A stretch of DNA of 43,178 bases from a virus. The notes under the pieces are model-generated. The model searched no databases and was not told where the DNA came from. It saw only the letters and a list, made by a program, of their open reading frames with translations. Both the position numbers and the translations under genes were made by a program. The stretch covers positions 1 through 43,178 of the IMG/VR virus record IMGVR_UViG_3300027844_002548. One strand, 5' to 3'. Positions 3,409-29,738 of this stretch are shown in pieces (positions within the stretch are counted from its first letter, which is position 1; each line of letters begins with the position of its first letter).

Positions 3409-4089
3409 TTAGTATTTATCATAAACCTTGTAATATTCTTTTAGTTTATCAAGCCACTTACTAATATATTCATCAAACTCATCTTGTTCAATAGTAAATT
3501 CTAAATACTTTCCTTCATGTGTAACCATCATAATAACAACTGTTTTTATATCTGTGCCAAATAATTCATTATGTGCCATAGCATATGCTGAACCTTGTAA
3601 AAAATAATCCTCGATCCATTCTCGTTTTTTTACTGAACGAGATGTTTTAAAATCTATAATGGCGGGTTTATCTTTCCAAAGTCCTACACAATCTGTAGTA
3701 CCTGCATAAAGTTCGGGAGAATATAATGATGCTTCTAATCCCCATACTTCATTAACATTTACAAGGCCATTTTCAATAACTACGTCTGCTAATTTAGATG
3801 CTATTTGTCTAAGTAAATTTGTGCCGCCAGGACGCTCTATACCTAAACAATGATTTTCTAAATGTTTATGTGTTGCTGTACCTAAATTTCCGGCTTCTAC
3901 TAAAATACGTTGTGCTTCTTCTGCTCCGACACGAGCTCTCCAAGCATTAATGCCAGACATATCTTTCATGCGGCCAAGGATAGTCGTTACAGAAGGTACC
4001 TTTGCATTTCCTGTATCATAAAGACGTTCGCCATCTTTATCTGTTCGTTTTAATTTGGGATATTCGTATAATTTGTTTATTAATGACAT
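3409..4089 (-). CDS. PD-(D/E)XK nuclease of the RecB/Cas4 type
   Basis: A 226-residue exonuclease-like protein. The full motif set of the family is readable: GTATH (residues 70-74), E119, GTTD (D133), IIDFKTS (D146 and K148) and the downstream QxxxYA (Q165, Y169). These enzymes process DNA ends, and similar proteins are common in marine T4-like phages. The ATG at 4089 lies directly after a consensus sigma-70 promoter with only 6 bases between the -10 box and ATG, and there is no Shine-Dalgarno sequence, so a leaderless early transcript is likely. Roles in recombination or host DNA degradation are both plausible. Confidence 0.85.
   Translation of the reverse strand: MSLINKLYEYPKLKRTDKDGERLYDTGNAKVPSVTTILGRMKDMSGINAWRARVGAEEAQRILVEAGNLGTATHKHLENHCLGIERPGGTNLLRQIASKLADVVIENGLVNVNEVWGLEASLYSPELYAGTTDCVGLWKDKPAIIDFKTSRSVKKREWIEDYFLQGSAYAMAHNELFGTDIKTVVIMMVTHEGKYLEFTIEQDEFDEYISKWLDKLKEYYKVYDKY
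3413..3420 (-). promoter_or_regulatory. T4-type late promoter of the tail-fibre gene
   Basis: GATAAATA on the minus strand, 31 bases before the GTG start at 3381. It lies inside the end of the upstream nuclease gene, so fibre expression can be switched on late and independently. Confidence 0.7.
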
Positions 4090-4095
4090 TCTTAT

Positions 4096-4124
4096 AGTAT
4101 ACTACAAGAAATATCATTTGTCAA
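4096..4124 (-). promoter_or_regulatory. Sigma-70 early promoter of the RecB-like nuclease gene
   Basis: TTGACA (4119-4124), 17-base spacer, TATACT (4096-4101) on the minus strand. The expected +1 coincides with the A of the ATG at 4089. Confidence 0.85.
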
Positions 4125-4132
4125 TAGCCTAT

Positions 4133-4756
4133 TTACCAAGTAACATGCCATTTAAAAGTAGTATTGGATGTCGAGGCATTCTTCTGCCTAATAATTGTAT
4201 AACCTAAATCTACAAAGTTTTTAATTATTTCTGCCATTTGCTGTGTGTATGTTGTATCGATAGCAGTTGCTTGCCATACATTATAATATGTTTTACTTAC
4301 ATCTGTTGCATTTGTTATGCTTGCGGTAATACCAACATCTGATAAAATTGTGCCGGACCCGGCGGCAATTGTTAATGCAAAATTATTATTATCGCTTGAA
4401 ATTTTTAATGTGCCGGCGACTGATGTTTTACTTGCTGTAATACCTGTTAGTGCTAAAGTATTAATATCATCTACTAATGAATTAAGTGTTGTTCCACTAG
4501 CAGTAACCGTAGTACTATTAATAGTAAAAGTATCTGCGGCTGTTATTGTTGGATTATTAATTGTTCCTGTAACGGAAATAGCAGGGGTACTCATTGTCAT
4601 TACAGTGCCGTCGGAAACCGTTGCGTTTAGTAAACTATTACTAACCGCTGTTAAAATCGCTTCCTCAATTACGCGGACTTCCCTAAGTATAACAAGATTT
4701 CCTTGTCCTTGTAACTTAGCGTCGGCGGCACTAATCATTATATTGTTAACAGCCAT
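4133..4756 (-). CDS. Virion-type protein with flagellin hook IN-like motif
   Basis: A 207-residue Thr/Ser/Ala-rich protein. The middle contains TINSTTVTASGTTLNSLVDD and later LKISSDNNNFALTIAAGSG, a pattern like the flagellin hook IN motif found as an inserted domain in many phage structural proteins. The N-terminus (MAVNNIMISAADAKLQGQGN) begins like the 263-residue virion-type protein at 18117-18908. Function as a tail or head surface protein is inferred from composition. It is the last gene of a run beginning at 5825 and is separated from the nuclease gene by that gene's promoter. Confidence 0.6.
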   Translation of the reverse strand: MAVNNIMISAADAKLQGQGNLVILREVRVIEEAILTAVSNSLLNATVSDGTVMTMSTPAISVTGTINNPTITAADTFTINSTTVTASGTTLNSLVDDINTLALTGITASKTSVAGTLKISSDNNNFALTIAAGSGTILSDVGITASITNATDVSKTYYNVWQATAIDTTYTQQMAEIIKNFVDLGYTIIRQKNASTSNTTFKWHVTW

Positions 4757-4764
4757 TTCCTCTC

Positions 4765-5097
4765 CTAAGTAAGTGGATTAGCACTATCTGCCGCTTGTGC
4801 AACGGTATCTTGTGCTTGATCGGCATCTGTTGTAGCATCTGGTAAATTCTCTACTTTTAATGTTATCATTTCTACTGTAGCAGTATTTACTAAATCTGGC
4901 ATATCATTAAGTGTATCAATTAATAATATTTTATCTATATCTATACCATTGTCGTGTAACTTCTTAATAACAAATTCCGTTTCAATTTCAGTTATGCCTT
5001 GATTTTTCATCATGAACAATAGATCGCCAATTTCTGATTTAATTATATCAGCATTGGATCCTTGATCTTCACTAAAAAAAATCTCAGCAAGTTTCAT
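4765..5097 (-). CDS. Unknown acidic protein with capsid-targeting-like leader
   Basis: A 110-residue acidic protein that I do not recognise. It begins MKLAEIFFSED, fitting the leader M-[K/N/R/E]-x-x-[E/D]-[I/L/F] that recurs through this window and resembles the T4 capsid targeting sequence. The middle is helical (DLLFMMKNQGITEIETEFV) and the C-terminus is low complexity (Asp, Ala, Gln). Its ATG overlaps the stop of the gene before it (ATGA type), so the two are translationally coupled. A virion-internal location is inference from the leader and neighbours. Confidence 0.55.
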   Translation of the reverse strand: MKLAEIFFSEDQGSNADIIKSEIGDLLFMMKNQGITEIETEFVIKKLHDNGIDIDKILLIDTLNDMPDLVNTATVEMITLKVENLPDATTDADQAQDTVAQAADSANPLT

Positions 5098-17512: not shown

Positions 17513-17544
17513 ATTATAGTATAAGAAAAAGTGCAATTTGTCAA
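17513..17544 (-). promoter_or_regulatory. Sigma-70 early promoter of the primase-helicase operon
   Basis: TTGACA (17539-17544) on the minus strand with overlapping -10 candidates: TACTAT at a 17-base spacer (17516-17521), TATACT at 15 (17518-17523) or TATAAT at 20 (17513-17518). The -35 box overlaps the end of the upstream gene. Confidence 0.7.
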
Positions 17545-18113
17545 CCAATTACTGTGGCTACCAAATGAACACGATCCACTTCGCCGCCATTAAACGCATT
17601 ATGGTACTTTGTATTATCAGTAATCCATACTTTACCATCTGCTGGCATATGCATTACCTCATTATCAATAACCATTAATGCACCAGGGTTAGTTATAATA
17701 GGAATGTGCAATCTCTTTTCCGGATCTCGATGCCAACTTAATGTAGTACGAGGTAACTTCCAAAGTAACCTAACTCTACCTAATTTATATTTGGTTAATA
17801 ATGTATCGTAGACTTCTTTATAATAAGTATCTTCAAATAATTTAACAAATTCAGTATATTGTGATTCATCAATTACTTCTTCACGTTGAACTTCGACGCC
17901 TGTACTATCAGGCTTGGTCCAAAATAGTCCTCTTACATTACCACCAGTAATTGAATTCGGGTCACCAGGAATTTGAGTTAAACAAATTGCATTAATATCA
18001 CATTCGATGAGAGGAGATTGCCGTGCCACTCTATCATCGATGAGTTGTAAGTCTTTCTGAAGTTTCCCAATATCAAATTCTATATCAGGGTCCTTGTAAA
18101 AGTTCTGTATCAT
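17541..18113 (-). CDS. 2-oxoglutarate/Fe(II) oxygenase, Asp/Asn hydroxylase-like
   Basis: A 190-residue protein. The Fe(II) triad can be read as LSWHRD (H128, D130) and KYHNAFN (H171), and R181 in DRVHLV is the likely 2-oxoglutarate ligand. This is the double-stranded beta-helix pattern of the aspartyl/asparaginyl beta-hydroxylase group. 2OG oxygenases are common in marine T4-like phages, but their targets (proteins, nucleic acids or small molecules) are mostly unknown. It lies between a virion-type gene and the primase operon, 3 bases after the upstream gene's stop, so it is probably read from the late promoter at 18935-18942. Confidence 0.8.
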   Translation of the reverse strand: MIQNFYKDPDIEFDIGKLQKDLQLIDDRVARQSPLIECDINAICLTQIPGDPNSITGGNVRGLFWTKPDSTGVEVQREEVIDESQYTEFVKLFEDTYYKEVYDTLLTKYKLGRVRLLWKLPRTTLSWHRDPEKRLHIPIITNPGALMVIDNEVMHMPADGKVWITDNTKYHNAFNGGEVDRVHLVATVIG

Positions 18114-24517: not shown

Positions 24518-25072
24518 TTACCCTGATATTTTTAGGGTTTCTTTCGCATCTGCAACTTGTTTCGTCGCGATTGCGTGTAAACGAGAATTGCCCTTATCTA
24601 GCACCTGCAAAAGAGCCTCTTTTTCTCTAATATAAACTTTAGCAAAATTTGGATCGTGTTTTACGATGCTTTTGCTGTTGCTGATCAAATCAGCCAATTT
24701 TACCGTTTGTGCATCAGCACTAGCACTAGCAGAATGCTCTCTGTCCATTTCTTTCCTAAGGGCTCGATTTCCATCTTCGAGTTTACTTATATCAGTTAGT
24801 TCATTTACTAGTTTAGCGATCGCAGGACCGAAATGCTCAACAATTTCCGCATTCGTGACATTTGTGTCTTCAACGGTATCGTGCAAAAGGGCGGCCGCTT
24901 GCATTACTTCGGATCCGCCAACCGATTTAACAATCTGTGAAACTTCTATTGGATGGACAATGTAATCCTCGCCAGTGTACTTTCGTTTCTGGCCGATGGA
25001 TTCGTGGGCATCTTTAGCAAACGCCAAAGCCTTATTAACCACGTTCTCTTGATCTACCTCTATAATTCGCAT
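24518..25072 (-). CDS. SpoT-like HD-domain hydrolase (putative (p)ppGpp hydrolase)
   Basis: A 184-residue single-domain protein of the RelA/SpoT hydrolase (MESH1-like) type. Key residues are present: DYIVHP (H40), ALLHDTVED (H64, D65, E68, D69), a MDREHS segment and VKLADLISN (D128). No synthetase, TGS or ACT domain follows, so it should only hydrolyse the alarmone (p)ppGpp or a related nucleotide. The ATG at 25072 is preceded by GGAAGG; an in-frame ATG at 25090 lies upstream of that site. It is the last gene of the early operon from 25971. Removing host (p)ppGpp could restore stable RNA and nucleotide synthesis during infection (inference). Confidence 0.82.
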   Translation of the reverse strand: MRIIEVDQENVVNKALAFAKDAHESIGQKRKYTGEDYIVHPIEVSQIVKSVGGSEVMQAAALLHDTVEDTNVTNAEIVEHFGPAIAKLVNELTDISKLEDGNRALRKEMDREHSASASADAQTVKLADLISNSKSIVKHDPNFAKVYIREKEALLQVLDKGNSRLHAIATKQVADAKETLKISG

Positions 25073-25073
25073 A

Positions 25074-25331
25074 CTATCCTTCCAACTCATTTAGTATACT
25101 TATCAACTTTCTCATCTTGCCAACTTTTTTCTGCCAGAAGCCTTTTGGTATAGGCGTGTTCCAACCATTTTTGCGAGCATTGCTTATACTAGTAAATAGG
25201 CCTGCCTCAACCATAATATGGGCCATGATCCAATGCTCCTGAATCGGAACATTTTCAATATCATCAAAACCAAACAGTTCTATATCTTTATCAGAAATGC
25301 TCGGATGGACAAAATTAATTTCGTTAGTCAC
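25074..25331 (-). CDS. Small phage protein of unknown function
   Basis: An 85-residue protein with a GTG start at 25331 that overlaps the preceding gene by 8 bases. The segment EHWIMAHIMVEAGLFTSISN followed by ARKNGWNTPIPKGF looks like a small alpha/beta domain and ends in a basic helix (KKVGKMRKLISIL). GxWNxPIPKG-type segments recur in short phage proteins I cannot name. It is translationally coupled to the HD hydrolase, whose start lies 1 base after its stop codon. No function is assigned. Confidence 0.5.
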   Translation of the reverse strand: MTNEINFVHPSISDKDIELFGFDDIENVPIQEHWIMAHIMVEAGLFTSISNARKNGWNTPIPKGFWQKKVGKMRKLISILNELEG

Positions 25332-26375: not shown

Positions 26376-26395
26376 TCATTACAAATATATATCTT

Positions 26396-26403
26396 GGTAA
26401 ATA
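26396..26403 (+). promoter_or_regulatory. Late-promoter-like octamer before the CCA-adding-type gene
   Basis: GGTAAATA on the plus strand, one mismatch from NATAAATA, then exactly 5 bases and the ATG at 26409. The spacing equals that of the minus-strand leaderless late promoters. Confidence 0.4.
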
Positions 26404-26408
26404 TATGT

Positions 26409-27605
26409 ATGAGAGCATTAGAATTTTTAGTTGAGGCACAAGAAAAACTAGATAGTGACGAATTTAAACAAATTCTTACTGCTGGTGTAGTTTCACTCGG
26501 TAACCTTTTTCATAAAAACGGATTTGAACTACGTATTGTTGGTGGTGCAGTTCGAGACCTAATGCTTGGCAAATTGCCCAAAGATACAGACTTAGCATCA
26601 GATGCTACACCAGACGAAATGGTTGAAATGTTTGAAAAGGGCAATATTAAGTATATTCCAACAGGATTACAGCACGGAACAATTACCGCTGTAATTAATA
26701 AAGAACAATTAGAAATTACAACGTTACGTGCAGACGCAGAACATACTGGTAGACACGCTACTGTTGAATTTATACGTAGTTGGGAAGAAGATGCTAAACG
26801 CAGAGATTTAACATACAATGCTATGTCATTAGATTTAGACGGTACAGTATATGATTATTTTAATGGAGCAAATGACTTACAAGATAAAGTAAGTAAATTT
26901 GTAGGTGAACCGGAACAACGTATACAAGAAGATTATTTAAGAATTTTGCGCTACTTTAGATTCCAAGGACGCATTAATAATCCTACTTGGGAGAAAGATA
27001 CATTAGATGCTATAAAAAGCAATGTTAAAGGTTTAACACAAATTTCTGGTGAACGTATATGGATGGAAATGCAAAAGATACTGTTAGGTAACAATGTAAA
27101 AGACATATTAGTACATTTAGAAAAAACAGGCGTTACAAAAAATATTAATCTACCATTAGATGATATTGCACTAGCAGAAAAAGTTAGTACAATGCAAAGT
27201 CCTATTGTTCCTTTAGCAAGTCTTATGCGTAATATAAAAGATGTAGACGCGATAGGTAATGCATGGAAACTATCAAATGCAGAAATGCAACTTTTATCTT
27301 TTTTAACTGAATTTAAAAATACACCTCTAACACAGCAAAGTGCAGAAGAATTTTTAGTTGATGAAACTCATCAATATTTTGTTTATGCTCTTGCTAAAAT
27401 ACAAGACAAAGATGCTATTGCAAATCATATTAGAAGTTGGCAAGTACCAGAATTTCCTGTAACAGGAAAAGACTTAATTAGTGCAGATGTAAAACCTGGT
27501 CCTAACATGGGTGCTTTACTAACAAAGTTACGAGACGAATGGAAGTCTAAAAACTACAAACCTAGCAAAGAAGAATTATTATCAACAGTGATCGATGAAC
27601 GGTAA
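26409..27605 (+). CDS. CCA-adding enzyme / poly(A) polymerase family protein with capsid-targeting-like leader
   Basis: A 398-residue class II nucleotidyltransferase. RIVGGAVRDLMLG (GG at 45-46, RD at 49-50), DTD (D59, D61), TTLRADAE, RRDLTYNAM (131-139), EDYLRILRYFRF and SGERIWMEM are the ordered motifs of bacterial tRNA nucleotidyltransferases and poly(A) polymerases. It would add CCA (or A) to RNA 3' ends. The ATG at 26409 is used; an in-frame TTG at 26394 is less likely. The leader MRALEFLVEAQEK fits the capsid-targeting pattern, and LVE|A fits the prohead protease site. It is on the plus strand, convergent with the tRNA and synthetase genes. Confidence 0.85.
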   Translation: MRALEFLVEAQEKLDSDEFKQILTAGVVSLGNLFHKNGFELRIVGGAVRDLMLGKLPKDTDLASDATPDEMVEMFEKGNIKYIPTGLQHGTITAVINKEQLEITTLRADAEHTGRHATVEFIRSWEEDAKRRDLTYNAMSLDLDGTVYDYFNGANDLQDKVSKFVGEPEQRIQEDYLRILRYFRFQGRINNPTWEKDTLDAIKSNVKGLTQISGERIWMEMQKILLGNNVKDILVHLEKTGVTKNINLPLDDIALAEKVSTMQSPIVPLASLMRNIKDVDAIGNAWKLSNAEMQLLSFLTEFKNTPLTQQSAEEFLVDETHQYFVYALAKIQDKDAIANHIRSWQVPEFPVTGKDLISADVKPGPNMGALLTKLRDEWKSKNYKPSKEELLSTVIDER

Positions 27606-27876
27606 AGATCCATACGATTATAGTAGGCAAATACAAACTGGTAAAAGTATGGGCGAGTTCGGAGATGTAGATACAACACGAACCATAGGAAAACAAGGAT
27701 GGAAAGTAAAAATAGAGACAAACCCAAGAAAGAAAAAAAGAAGCCGAAGAAGCCTAAGTCTTAAAATTAAAAACTGGCTCCGGAGGAAGGATTCGAACCT
27801 TCACGCCCTGCCAAGGACACTGAGTAAACCGCCCAGCATGTCTACCAATTCCATCACTCCGGAACAAATTCTTTAG
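27595..27876 (+). CDS. Possible small basic protein, antisense to a tRNA in its second half
   Basis: An open frame of 93 codons whose ATG overlaps the end of the CCA-adding gene by 11 bases. Residues 1-50 look protein-like (DPYDYSRQIQTGKSMGEFGD, then GWKVKIETNPRKKK). From about residue 62 the frame runs antisense through the tRNA gene, and that part is probably not under protein selection. A second frame offers a 21-codon Lys/Pro-rich peptide ending at 27762, so a -1 shift near 27700 could end the real protein there. Treat it as a doubtful gene. Confidence 0.35.
   Translation: MNGKDPYDYSRQIQTGKSMGEFGDVDTTRTIGKQGWKVKIETNPRKKKRSRRSLSLKIKNWLRRKDSNLHALPRTLSKPPSMSTNSITPEQIL
27775..27863 (-). tRNA. 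Class II tRNA with anomalous anticodon loop (GUU at the anticodon position)
   Basis: An 89-base tRNA with encoded CCA. Acceptor stem UCCGGAG/CUCCGGA pairs fully, discriminator G73. The D arm contains GAAUUGGUAGA. The anticodon stem is CUGGG/CUCAG and the T arm GAAGG-UUCGAAU-CCUUC. The long variable arm (UGUCC-UUGGCA-GGGCG) and D loop are of the tRNA-Leu kind. The anticodon loop is CGGUUUA (27825-27831). Positions 34-36 read GUU (Asn), but position 33 is G rather than the near-universal U, and position 37 is U rather than a purine. G73, U1-A72 and GUU agree with bacterial tRNA-Asn. All stems are intact, so decay is unlikely. It starts 9 bases after the synthetase-like stop codon. Confidence 0.85.
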
Positions 27877-28703
27877 AACAAGTTACACATTTCCATTGCA
27901 CGAATAAATCTAGTCATTCCAATGCCGCCGCCTACACGTGGTATAAAATCATGACTTAAAAATTCGTCCAATTCTTTGTTAACTCTGTCCTTGCCAAACG
28001 TTCCATGCAACAAACTAGCATATTGCCCATCACTAATTGTGTGAAACATATCATGCATTTCTGTTGTATCTGCTGACCGTTCTGCAGAACCAATTGTTTC
28101 TTGTCCACAAATAATTACATCAATTTTTGCGGCTGTTCCATCACCATTTTGTTTCATGTTCCAAAATGGACTTGTGTAATTTGGAAAGTTTCGAATCATT
28201 TGTACATTACCGTACTTTTCATACATTGCAGTTTCTTCTGCATGTGTTAATTCTTCAACGCCAAATTCCGCTGACCAATCAGTGTAATCTTTTGATGTAA
28301 TTGCATCAATTGATGAAAAGCCTACTGCTTCGCATAAATCCAATTCCATTCGATATAAGTCATTAATATCCCCTGGCATTTCGAATTCAAACATAGGAAA
28401 TATAAGATCATGCCTACCAGGTATAGCATTAGGCTCTTGCCTATATGATGTTGAGACACAAAAAAAGCCCGGAACCTCAGGCTTAGTAAGTAACTCGTAT
28501 TCTAACCACATCTGTCCTGTTTGCGGTAACGGCCAAACTTGGCCGGCGTAATTATATGTTGAGACAGTTGTTGGATCTTCGCATGCCGCTAATATACTTA
28601 AACGATTTTGCGTATGTACTTCTTGAAATCCTTTGTTCAAAAAAAAGGACCGTAAACGGCCCACGCTATCCGTGAATTTCTCCGGATTAATAAGTTGTGT
28701 CAT
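27873..28703 (-). CDS. Truncated class II AsnRS/AsnA-like synthetase
   Basis: A 276-residue catalytic core of the Asp/Asn class II synthetase family. Visible are FFLNKGFQEV (motif 1 region, 20-29), SYRQEP with RHDLIFPMFEFE (motif 2, R88, E90, R97), KIDVIICGQETIGSAERS (193-210, the AsnRS-like GEIIGGSQR region) and VGGGIGMTRFIRAME (motif 3, R265). The GGGIG form also resembles asparagine synthetase A. The N-terminal OB-fold anticodon-binding domain of AsnRS is absent. It should activate an amino acid with ATP; transfer to tRNA or ammonia cannot be decided. A late promoter (28761-28768) precedes it, and the tRNA follows in the same transcript direction. Confidence 0.8.
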   Translation of the reverse strand: MTQLINPEKFTDSVGRLRSFFLNKGFQEVHTQNRLSILAACEDPTTVSTYNYAGQVWPLPQTGQMWLEYELLTKPEVPGFFCVSTSYRQEPNAIPGRHDLIFPMFEFEMPGDINDLYRMELDLCEAVGFSSIDAITSKDYTDWSAEFGVEELTHAEETAMYEKYGNVQMIRNFPNYTSPFWNMKQNGDGTAAKIDVIICGQETIGSAERSADTTEMHDMFHTISDGQYASLLHGTFGKDRVNKELDEFLSHDFIPRVGGGIGMTRFIRAMEMCNLF

Positions 28704-28760
28704 ATGTTTTCTCCAGTCAAAAAAATTTTGCTCGGAATAGAACTAAATTTTCTTTTATTT

Positions 28761-28768
28761 TATTTATA
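28761..28768 (-). promoter_or_regulatory. Consensus T4 late promoter of the synthetase-tRNA unit
   Basis: TATAAATA on the minus strand, 57 bases before the ATG at 28703. It places both synthetase and tRNA under late control. Confidence 0.8.
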
Positions 28769-28775
28769 CAATTGA

Positions 28776-29738
28776 TCAATAACCGTAAGGTATAATTACA
28801 TAATGTATTGCCAATACTATTCCAACTGAAACTATTAATCCTAACATCATTTTAAGAAAGTCTCTTCCTACAATTGGAAATACGTGCTTGAATTTATAAT
28901 TTTCCATAACAGTTGATATAGCAAGTTCTCGTCCACATAGCAATCCAACAAACACCCAAGTTGTACTCATAGGAATGTCATTTAATTCTTTAAAGAATAA
29001 CAATATGAATGCATAAACTAAATTAATTATTGTTGCTGATCGAACATACCTAGTGCCTGTTTTTTCTAAAACAATTTCTTGAATTTTGCCGCCATGTTCT
29101 CGAAATGTATATCCTAAGAACACTACAAATACAACAGATATAAAAAGCATCCATTCTATAGACAATGCTCGTGGGAGGAATACAGCAATATTTGCCATAT
29201 CGTGTGATAACCAAGTATACCATAAAAACCCAGTTGTGCCCCATTGAGCAACACGCCAATATCTTTTATGGTGTTCTTTTACTTTATCATGTTTTTCATC
29301 AATTAATCGTTCTAAAACAATCCATAAACAATACGCAACAACTGCGGCCAATGCATAACCCATAACAGATTTTACAAGCATTTTTTCCAATACAAATGTA
29401 CTAGCAAATGCCGATAACACTAGGAATGAGGTTGAAACTGGAACGCCTATTCGCGTTAACAATAAAAGTATGGCTGGTGCTGTAGCATGATACCATTGCA
29501 CTTCTTGAAATGGTATTTTATTTAATCTACCAAATGATATATCACCTGCATTAATATACCACCCATACCACATAGTTATTAATAGACCAATCGAAGCGGC
29601 GGCCCATAAAGTATACCATTTAAATTTTTCTGAATTTGATGCTAGCCATGGACCTAAGGTTTGTACACTATCATTAGCAACAACAGAATATGCGGCTAAC
29701 ATAAAACCTAGGATCATCCATAACAAAGTTATATCCAT
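28776..29738 (-). CDS. PiT-family phosphate permease
   Basis: A 320-residue integral membrane protein with about nine hydrophobic segments. Family signatures are AYSVVANDSVQTLGPWLAS near the N-terminus (the GANDxxN-type repeat), VSTSFLVLSAFAS, LSHDMANIAVFLP and IPMSTTWVFVGLLCGRELA, which are the two inverted PiT repeats. It would import inorganic phosphate (ion-coupled) into the host during infection, meeting the phosphate demand of DNA replication. Phage- and virus-borne phosphate transporters are known from marine systems. A weak GGAG precedes the ATG, and the terminator at 29755-29789 separates it from upstream transcription. No clear promoter of its own is visible. Confidence 0.82.
   Translation of the reverse strand: MDITLLWMILGFMLAAYSVVANDSVQTLGPWLASNSEKFKWYTLWAAASIGLLITMWYGWYINAGDISFGRLNKIPFQEVQWYHATAPAILLLLTRIGVPVSTSFLVLSAFASTFVLEKMLVKSVMGYALAAVVAYCLWIVLERLIDEKHDKVKEHHKRYWRVAQWGTTGFLWYTWLSHDMANIAVFLPRALSIEWMLFISVVFVVFLGYTFREHGGKIQEIVLEKTGTRYVRSATIINLVYAFILLFFKELNDIPMSTTWVFVGLLCGRELAISTVMENYKFKHVFPIVGRDFLKMMLGLIVSVGIVLAIHYVIIPYGY

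Follow-up and report, generated by a model that had tools for sequence, protein, structure and literature searches.

In the textbook route the pyrimidine branch from aspartate begins with two steps, catalysed by aspartate carbamoyltransferase and dihydroorotase, and dihydroorotate is itself a cyclic ureide of aspartate. Charged tRNA can also act as a metabolic carrier, as Glu-tRNA does in tetrapyrrole synthesis. That an enzyme built like a synthetase can work outside translation has a precedent in asparagine synthetase A (AS-A) and the related AS-AR, with AS-A making asparagine without a tRNA (PMC9437257). For tRNA-Asn, the anticodon together with G73 forms a transplantable bacterial Asn identity set, and the U1-A72 pair directs the amidation of Asp-tRNA-Asn by GatCAB (PMC9976931). 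Within the open-licence papers searched no description was found of the synthetase-tRNA pair considered here, or of an aminoacyl-tRNA synthetase-like pyrimidine enzyme.

The tRNA and synthetase-like gene of the window

The window, by which is meant the whole stretch of 43,178 nucleotides that was analysed, carries a tRNA beside a gene for a protein similar to asparaginyl-tRNA synthetase (AsnRS). The features of this locus are:

27775..27863, minus strand: class II tRNA with anticodon GUU, G73, U1-A72 and an encoded CCA (ARAGORN tRNA-Asn(gtt); Rfam)
27827..27829, minus strand: anticodon GUU (34-36) of this tRNA, with G33 at 27830 and U37 at 27826
27873..28703 (28703-27873), minus strand: stand-alone AsnRS-like class II catalytic core of 276 aa (ORF translation; Pfam PF00152; predicted structure)
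28761..28768, minus strand: TATAAATA, an octamer resembling a T4-type late promoter, located before the start of the synthetase-like gene (octamer scan of the window)

This is the one tRNA that ARAGORN calls in the whole window, as tRNA-Asn(gtt). The Rfam tRNA model missed it when the whole window was searched at the gathering threshold, with a focused search of 501 bases recovering it at 39.7 bits (E=5.4e-7). Its cloverleaf has 7 acceptor pairs (UCCGGAG/CUCCGGA), 5 anticodon pairs and 5 T-stem pairs, the anticodon loop is CGGUUUA and the variable arm of 17 nt forms a stem of its own. An earlier, sequence-only reading had described this class II tRNA with its encoded CCA, lying 9 nt past the stop of a class II Asp/Asn synthetase core that lacks the OB-fold, and both descriptions are borne out. 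It had also proposed a late promoter, of which part stands: the octamer is present and all five such octamers in the window are on the coding strand, but their total is not above chance (5 found, 7.3 expected).

The sole Pfam match of the 276-aa protein is to PF00152 (tRNA-synt_2, the core of the D/K/N synthetases), over the cut-off at E=1.4e-11. An AlphaFold model built from 63 homologues has a mean pLDDT of 93.5 and in Foldseek it matches the catalytic cores of AsnRS and AspRS with a query TM of about 0.75; Pfam, the model and Foldseek all give a core only, the OB-fold anticodon-binding domain being absent. Whilst phmmer with the single protein retrieved no PDB relative, profiles did retrieve relatives, and in the profile search with the family the top match is AsnRS (2xgt, E=1.9e-13), AS-AR being much weaker (3p8t, E=7.7e-4). 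By the curated models the protein is not an AsnRS, as the AsnRS family models score it at 24.9 bits (cut-off 414) and 19.1 bits (cut-off 342.6). Nor do the curated AsnA and AS-AR models (PRK06462) include it, giving 15-20 bits where the cut-offs are 309-389.

The catalytic residues are unchanged in all 63 rows of the family alignment, including R88 and E90 of motif 2, R265 of motif 3, and E42. The last of these aligns with E279 of human AsnRS, the position being counted by hand along the alignment, and E279 is a residue that contacts Asn (PMC10831071). A family stretch of the form Q-x-x-Q-x-x-L-E resembles that of AsnRS (Q-S-S-Q-L-Y-L-E), unlike that of AspRS (Q-S-P-Q-L-Y-K-Q), with the residue after Q-x-x-Q-x-x-L being Glu and not Lys. 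The ATP/Asn-type active site thus looks intact, and the protein looks like an active adenylating enzyme of the Asn type.

At least about 600 relatives of the protein were matched in IMG/VR; megablast did not find a close phage record for the window and a plasmid search was negative. In PHROGs the protein belongs to PHROG 29758 with the function given as "unknown", and in the Prochlorococcus phages P-SSM2, P-SSM5 and P-SSM7 the family is annotated as "tRNA ligase" (T4-GC 194), in all three adjoining an annotated tRNA-Asn. This abundant gene has been listed until now only under these two labels.

Other genes of the window lie around the pair. Just past the tRNA on the opposite strand is a gene for a CCA-adding enzyme (tRNA nucleotidyltransferase; 26394-27605, plus strand, PF01743, E=6e-35, PHROG 2244), which could keep up tRNA 3' ends. 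Upstream of the synthetase-like gene there is a membrane protein with weak similarity to PHO4 phosphate transporters (28776-29738, minus strand). Further away are an HD-domain phosphohydrolase (24518-25090, minus strand, PF13328 HD_4, E=5.6e-21) and an aspartyl/asparaginyl beta-hydroxylase domain (17541-18113, minus strand, PF05118, E=2.5e-10), the latter of a class reported in cyanophages too.

Conservation of the tRNA and of the pairing in marine phages

In most marine phage relatives a tRNA lies directly downstream of the synthetase-like gene, and this adjacency recurs across a divergent clade. In an alignment of the tRNAs 97.9% of the pair cells were paired (73% in shuffles) and two-sided compensatory change was found in 21 of 24 pairs (14.6 in shuffles). 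A covariance model then gave 149 distinct tRNAs among the matches listed. The recurring adjacency and the compensatory changes argue that the pair is not due to chance, and it is very likely that tRNA and enzyme are functionally coupled. The synthetase-tRNA adjacency that the sequence-only reading would have looked for in relatives is there.

The anticodon of these listed tRNAs is close to invariant, with G34 and U35 in all 149, U36 in 147 and C36 (giving GUC) in two. G73 is found in 149 of 149 and U1-A72 in 148, so that GUU and G73 on a Leu-like, long-armed body, as first noted for the window, are strictly kept across the family. The variable loop is long, unlike that of a class I tRNA-Asn, at 17 nt in the window and mostly 13-39 nt in relatives.

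The rest of the anticodon loop is another matter. Among the 149, position 33 has 120 U, 17 C, 10 A and 2 G, with U33 lost throughout one subclade; position 37 has 127 U, 10 A, 9 G and 3 C, and hence a purine in only 19. A pyrimidine at 37 is nearly family-wide and the G33 of the window is local to the relatives of this phage, so the odd loop noted in the window holds for the family at 37 but not at 33, and a conserved G33 was rejected as a family signature. Most of the tRNAs keep U33 and a few combine it with G37 or A37, so that a decoding role is conceivable, and these few look able to decode. Overall the determinants for charging are conserved, with those for decoding relaxed.

How the tRNA is charged bears on this pattern. 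An invariant anticodon beside an enzyme with no anticodon-binding domain is more easily explained if the anticodon is recognised by host AspRS or AsnRS. Charging by a host enzyme also fits better with the switch from GUU to GUC in two relatives (L011, 3859-3958; L025, 3868-3966), in both of which the class II body is retained, this Asp anticodon is followed by G37 and the conserved motifs of the enzyme are unchanged.

In the tree the marine phages form one clade (SH-aLRT 95), a few tRNA-bearing rows of which are marked tRNA-less in the tree labels. Outside it, in cells, freshwater phages and huge phages, no such tRNA was found; elsewhere in the huge-phage records, within the stretches read, there were ordinary tRNAs only. 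As the tRNA is confined to the marine clade it was probably gained once and lost later in some members, and some marine relatives do appear to have lost it. In one contig (L087, 6858-6890) all that is left of the tRNA is the pair of acceptor strands (TCCGGGG-T-CCCCCGGAGCCA), owing to an internal deletion or an assembly artefact.

Several other genes were seen near the pair in phages. A lipase-like gene is often directly downstream (L083, 5935-6549; L059, about 4217-4984; also P-SSM2), four marine phage contigs (L031, L054, L065, L076) have predicted tmRNA genes nearby, some with long or unusual tags, and one phage-like contig has an ORF like glutamine synthetase (L163, about 3660-4322, minus strand).

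Pyrimidine genes around the family in bacteria and phages

The family is not limited to phages. A scan of GTDB genomes gave 125 relatives, many 52-62% identical, with carriers that include Patescibacteria, Bacteroidota, Rickettsiales, Dependentiae and Pasteurella atlantica. No adjacent tRNA was found at the bacterial loci, and no dedicated tRNA in the two closed genomes of Pasteurella atlantica and Coatesbacteria, where the class II tRNA matches fetched were Leu, Ser or Tyr. Since the bacterial, freshwater-phage and huge-phage relatives are without the tRNA, the chemistry of the enzyme need not use one. Pasteurella atlantica also has a separate AsnRS of its own besides the family member.

It is apparent that many bacterial homologues lie among pyrimidine genes, with pyrE/pyrF as neighbours at 21 loci and pyrD as a neighbour at 17. 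In Bandiella and Midichloriaceae the order is AsnRS-like-pyrF-pyrE-pyrD, and in Pasteurella atlantica pyrD, the family gene, pyrF and a pyrE-like gene are side by side. In three Flavobacteriia carriers, and in most of those from Patescibacteria, pyr genes do not adjoin the family gene. At the Patescibacteria loci (L093-L164) without pyrimidine context the neighbours that recur are dnaX, ftsQ, serS and a dus-like gene for a tRNA-dihydrouridine synthase. In a MAG of candidate division SR1 (L155, 6001-6063) the frame of the homologue appears to be broken at a UGA, which would make sense if SR1 translates UGA as an amino acid.

The same context is found in phages, with a PyrD-like and/or PyrE-like gene within 3 kb of the family gene in at least 20 distinct loci, the PyrD calls passing the Pfam cut-off and the PyrE calls being based on similarity to the Bandiella gene. 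The background in 50,697 phage records was one PyrD match and no PyrE. Three loci have the order pyrD - synthetase-like - tRNA - pyrE (L256, L270, L442), in three pyrD precedes the synthetase-like gene by 63 bp (L059, L063, L090) and in two pyrE lies upstream of it (L043, L403). In the 43-kb fragment that forms the window, the ORFs scanned included no pyrimidine gene.

The carriers of the family also mostly lack PyrB and PyrC. PyrB passes its cut-off in 14 of 14 controls but in 2 of 30 carriers; within Bacteroidia 1 of 11 carriers passes, compared with 273 of 294 non-carriers (Fisher p=2.8e-10). The Bacteroidia sample comprised 295 genomes, 273 of them with PyrB over the cut-off, and the one carrier inside it (G005) is among the 11 sampled genomes without any PyrB match. 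The PyrC models pass their cut-offs in 2 of the 30, the same two as for PyrB (one Coatesbacteria and one messy MAG). Retention of PyrC in the Bacteroidota carriers was considered and rejected, as six weaker matches read by motif as allantoinase (five) and dihydropyrimidinase (one), and the corresponding family models confirmed one of each. Of the 30 carriers 23 have PyrD, and with PyrB and PyrC absent and PyrD present a single gene appears to bridge the gap to dihydroorotate. On the strength of these gene contents and neighbourhoods it is highly probable that the protein family has a function in pyrimidine synthesis.

Proposed function and comparison with known systems

The best explanation, which we put forward tentatively, is that an undescribed AsnRS-like family replaces PyrB and PyrC, and that in marine phages the tRNA is a carrier of Asn or Asp for the enzyme. 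The family enzyme would take the place of aspartate carbamoyltransferase and dihydroorotase, yielding dihydroorotate for PyrD, PyrE and PyrF, and its substrates would most likely be asparagine (or aspartate), ATP and a one-carbon unit. If asparagine were the start its amide nitrogen would become N3 and CO2 would close the ring through an ATP-activated carbamate, bypassing both carbamoyl-aspartate and dihydroorotase; a core that binds Asn and adenylates it could plausibly catalyse such a ring closure. GUU and G73, with U1-A72 for amidation, may let the host charge the phage tRNA with Asp or Asn; the phage enzyme could then use the aminoacyl-tRNA as a substrate or as a source of Asn, so that the tRNA would be a metabolic carrier and not mainly a decoder. 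Supplying or presenting Asn on a tRNA would be useful where Asn arises mainly on tRNA. In its full form, with Asn on or released from a dedicated and largely non-decoding tRNA being turned into dihydroorotate, bacteria using free Asn or ordinary Asn-tRNA and phages moving a mobile pyrD-synthetase-tRNA-pyrE cassette, the proposal is a reasonable possibility, a little short of an even one.

This departs from the view first taken of the window, that of a self-contained system in which an enzyme charges its own tRNA; with relatives that have no tRNA and sit in pyrimidine operons of genomes without PyrB and PyrC, that is not the best reading. A dedicated pair whose product is not meant for decoding agrees with the coupling and the relaxed decoding features, but the protein is restricted neither to phages nor to the tRNA. 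An amino-acid donor for another reaction, which was among the options offered, agrees with the carrier proposed here, the pyrimidine link lying outside what that reading could see.

It is possible, though less likely, that the enzyme makes dihydroorotate (or carbamoyl-aspartate) from a free amino acid and ATP with no tRNA involved, and that the phage tRNA separately decodes Asn codons or supplies Asn indirectly. The bacterial homologues, which share 52-62% identity, manage with no tRNA of their own, the pyrimidine context is the same in cells and phages, and AS-A/AS-AR is a precedent (PMC9437257). Yet throughout the marine clade the tRNA stays with the gene, has an amino-acid identity that agrees with the enzyme family, sits between synthetase and pyrE in the pyr operons and in most members has an anticodon loop unlike that of a normal decoder. 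That same loop weighs on the suggestion that the core enzyme charges the tRNA with Asn and boosts the decoding of AAU and AAC late in infection, as a purine at 37 is found in 19 of 149 and a whole subclade is without U33. An intact class II site, the near-invariant GUU (147 of 149), U33 in 120 of the 149 listed, a possible late-type promoter and the general habit of phages to carry tRNAs would all suit such a translation role. However, it leaves the pyrimidine context unexplained, as it does an anticodon that is fixed without an anticodon-binding domain and switched to GUC in two relatives with no change in the enzyme motif, and we regard it as unlikely.

Supply of asparagine by an AS-A-type synthetase, with the tRNA using or releasing the Asn made, could draw on the weak similarity to AS-AR (3p8t, E=7.7e-4) and the below-cut-off matches to "asparagine synthetase A" models. 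AsnRS profiles are closer (E=1.9e-13) however, the residue after the Q-x-x-Q-x-x-L stretch is Glu and not Lys, and the loss of PyrB would go unexplained. Furthermore, of the 13 carriers tested 12 match the Asn_synthase family, some of them weakly, and AsnA is present in 3, though in a few carriers the protein could fill a gap. A pure asparagine synthetase is thus disfavoured by both the profile ranking and the other asparagine synthetases of the carriers, and this supply role is improbable. Least probable by far is that the tRNA is a decoy, or a spare that resists a host anticodon nuclease, an idea also raised for the window as replacement of a cleaved host tRNA. Drift at 33 and the unusual 37 could spoil recognition by a nuclease with charging identity kept, but the tight link to the synthetase-like gene and to pyrimidine genes would be unaccounted for, and neither a nuclease partner nor other positive support was seen.

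Should the replacement of PyrB and PyrC by an AsnRS-derived enzyme be true, an essential pathway would have a new point of entry, and UMP synthesis would be explained in those Bacteroidota, Rickettsiales, Pasteurella and Patescibacteria that have pyrD/E/F without pyrB/C. Phages would gain a compact means to feed DNA synthesis and, if the tRNA takes part, a second central pathway would run on charged tRNA, after tetrapyrroles.

Set against known systems, the family shares with AsnRS (class IIb) the catalytic fold, motifs 2 and 3, the Asn-contacting Glu, the Q-x-x-Q-x-x-L-E stretch and its best PDB matches; it differs in having no OB-fold, in scoring far below AsnRS cut-offs and in occurring in pyrimidine operons and in genomes that already have an AsnRS. 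With asparagine synthetase A and archaeal AS-AR (3p8t), which are metabolic, it shares a stand-alone Asp/Asn synthetase core without an anticodon domain, but the similarity is remote, other asparagine synthetases are found in the same genomes, and the presence of the family goes with loss of PyrB. To PyrB and PyrC it is alike only in its proposed place upstream of PyrD, PyrE and PyrF, for its fold is unrelated and it is a predicted ATP-dependent adenylating enzyme found where both are missing.

On the side of the tRNA, the GluTR route to tetrapyrroles and the indirect synthesis of Asn-tRNA by GatCAB likewise have charged tRNA as a metabolic substrate, a carrier role that we infer here. To our knowledge neither has a pyrimidine product or a phage-specific tRNA. 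The U1-A72 mark of tRNA-Asn that serves GatCAB is present in the phage tRNA (PMC9976931). A synthetase that adjoins an unusual tRNA is also seen in PylRS/tRNAPyl and ProRSx/tRNA-ProA; those serve decoding, whereas in the present family the features needed for decoding are relaxed and the enzyme also occurs with no such tRNA. With canonical tRNA-Asn the family tRNA has in common GUU (147/149), G73 (149/149) and U1-A72 (148/149), and it is set apart by its long variable arm, by G33 with U37 in the window and by a purine at 37 in just 19 of the 149 listed.
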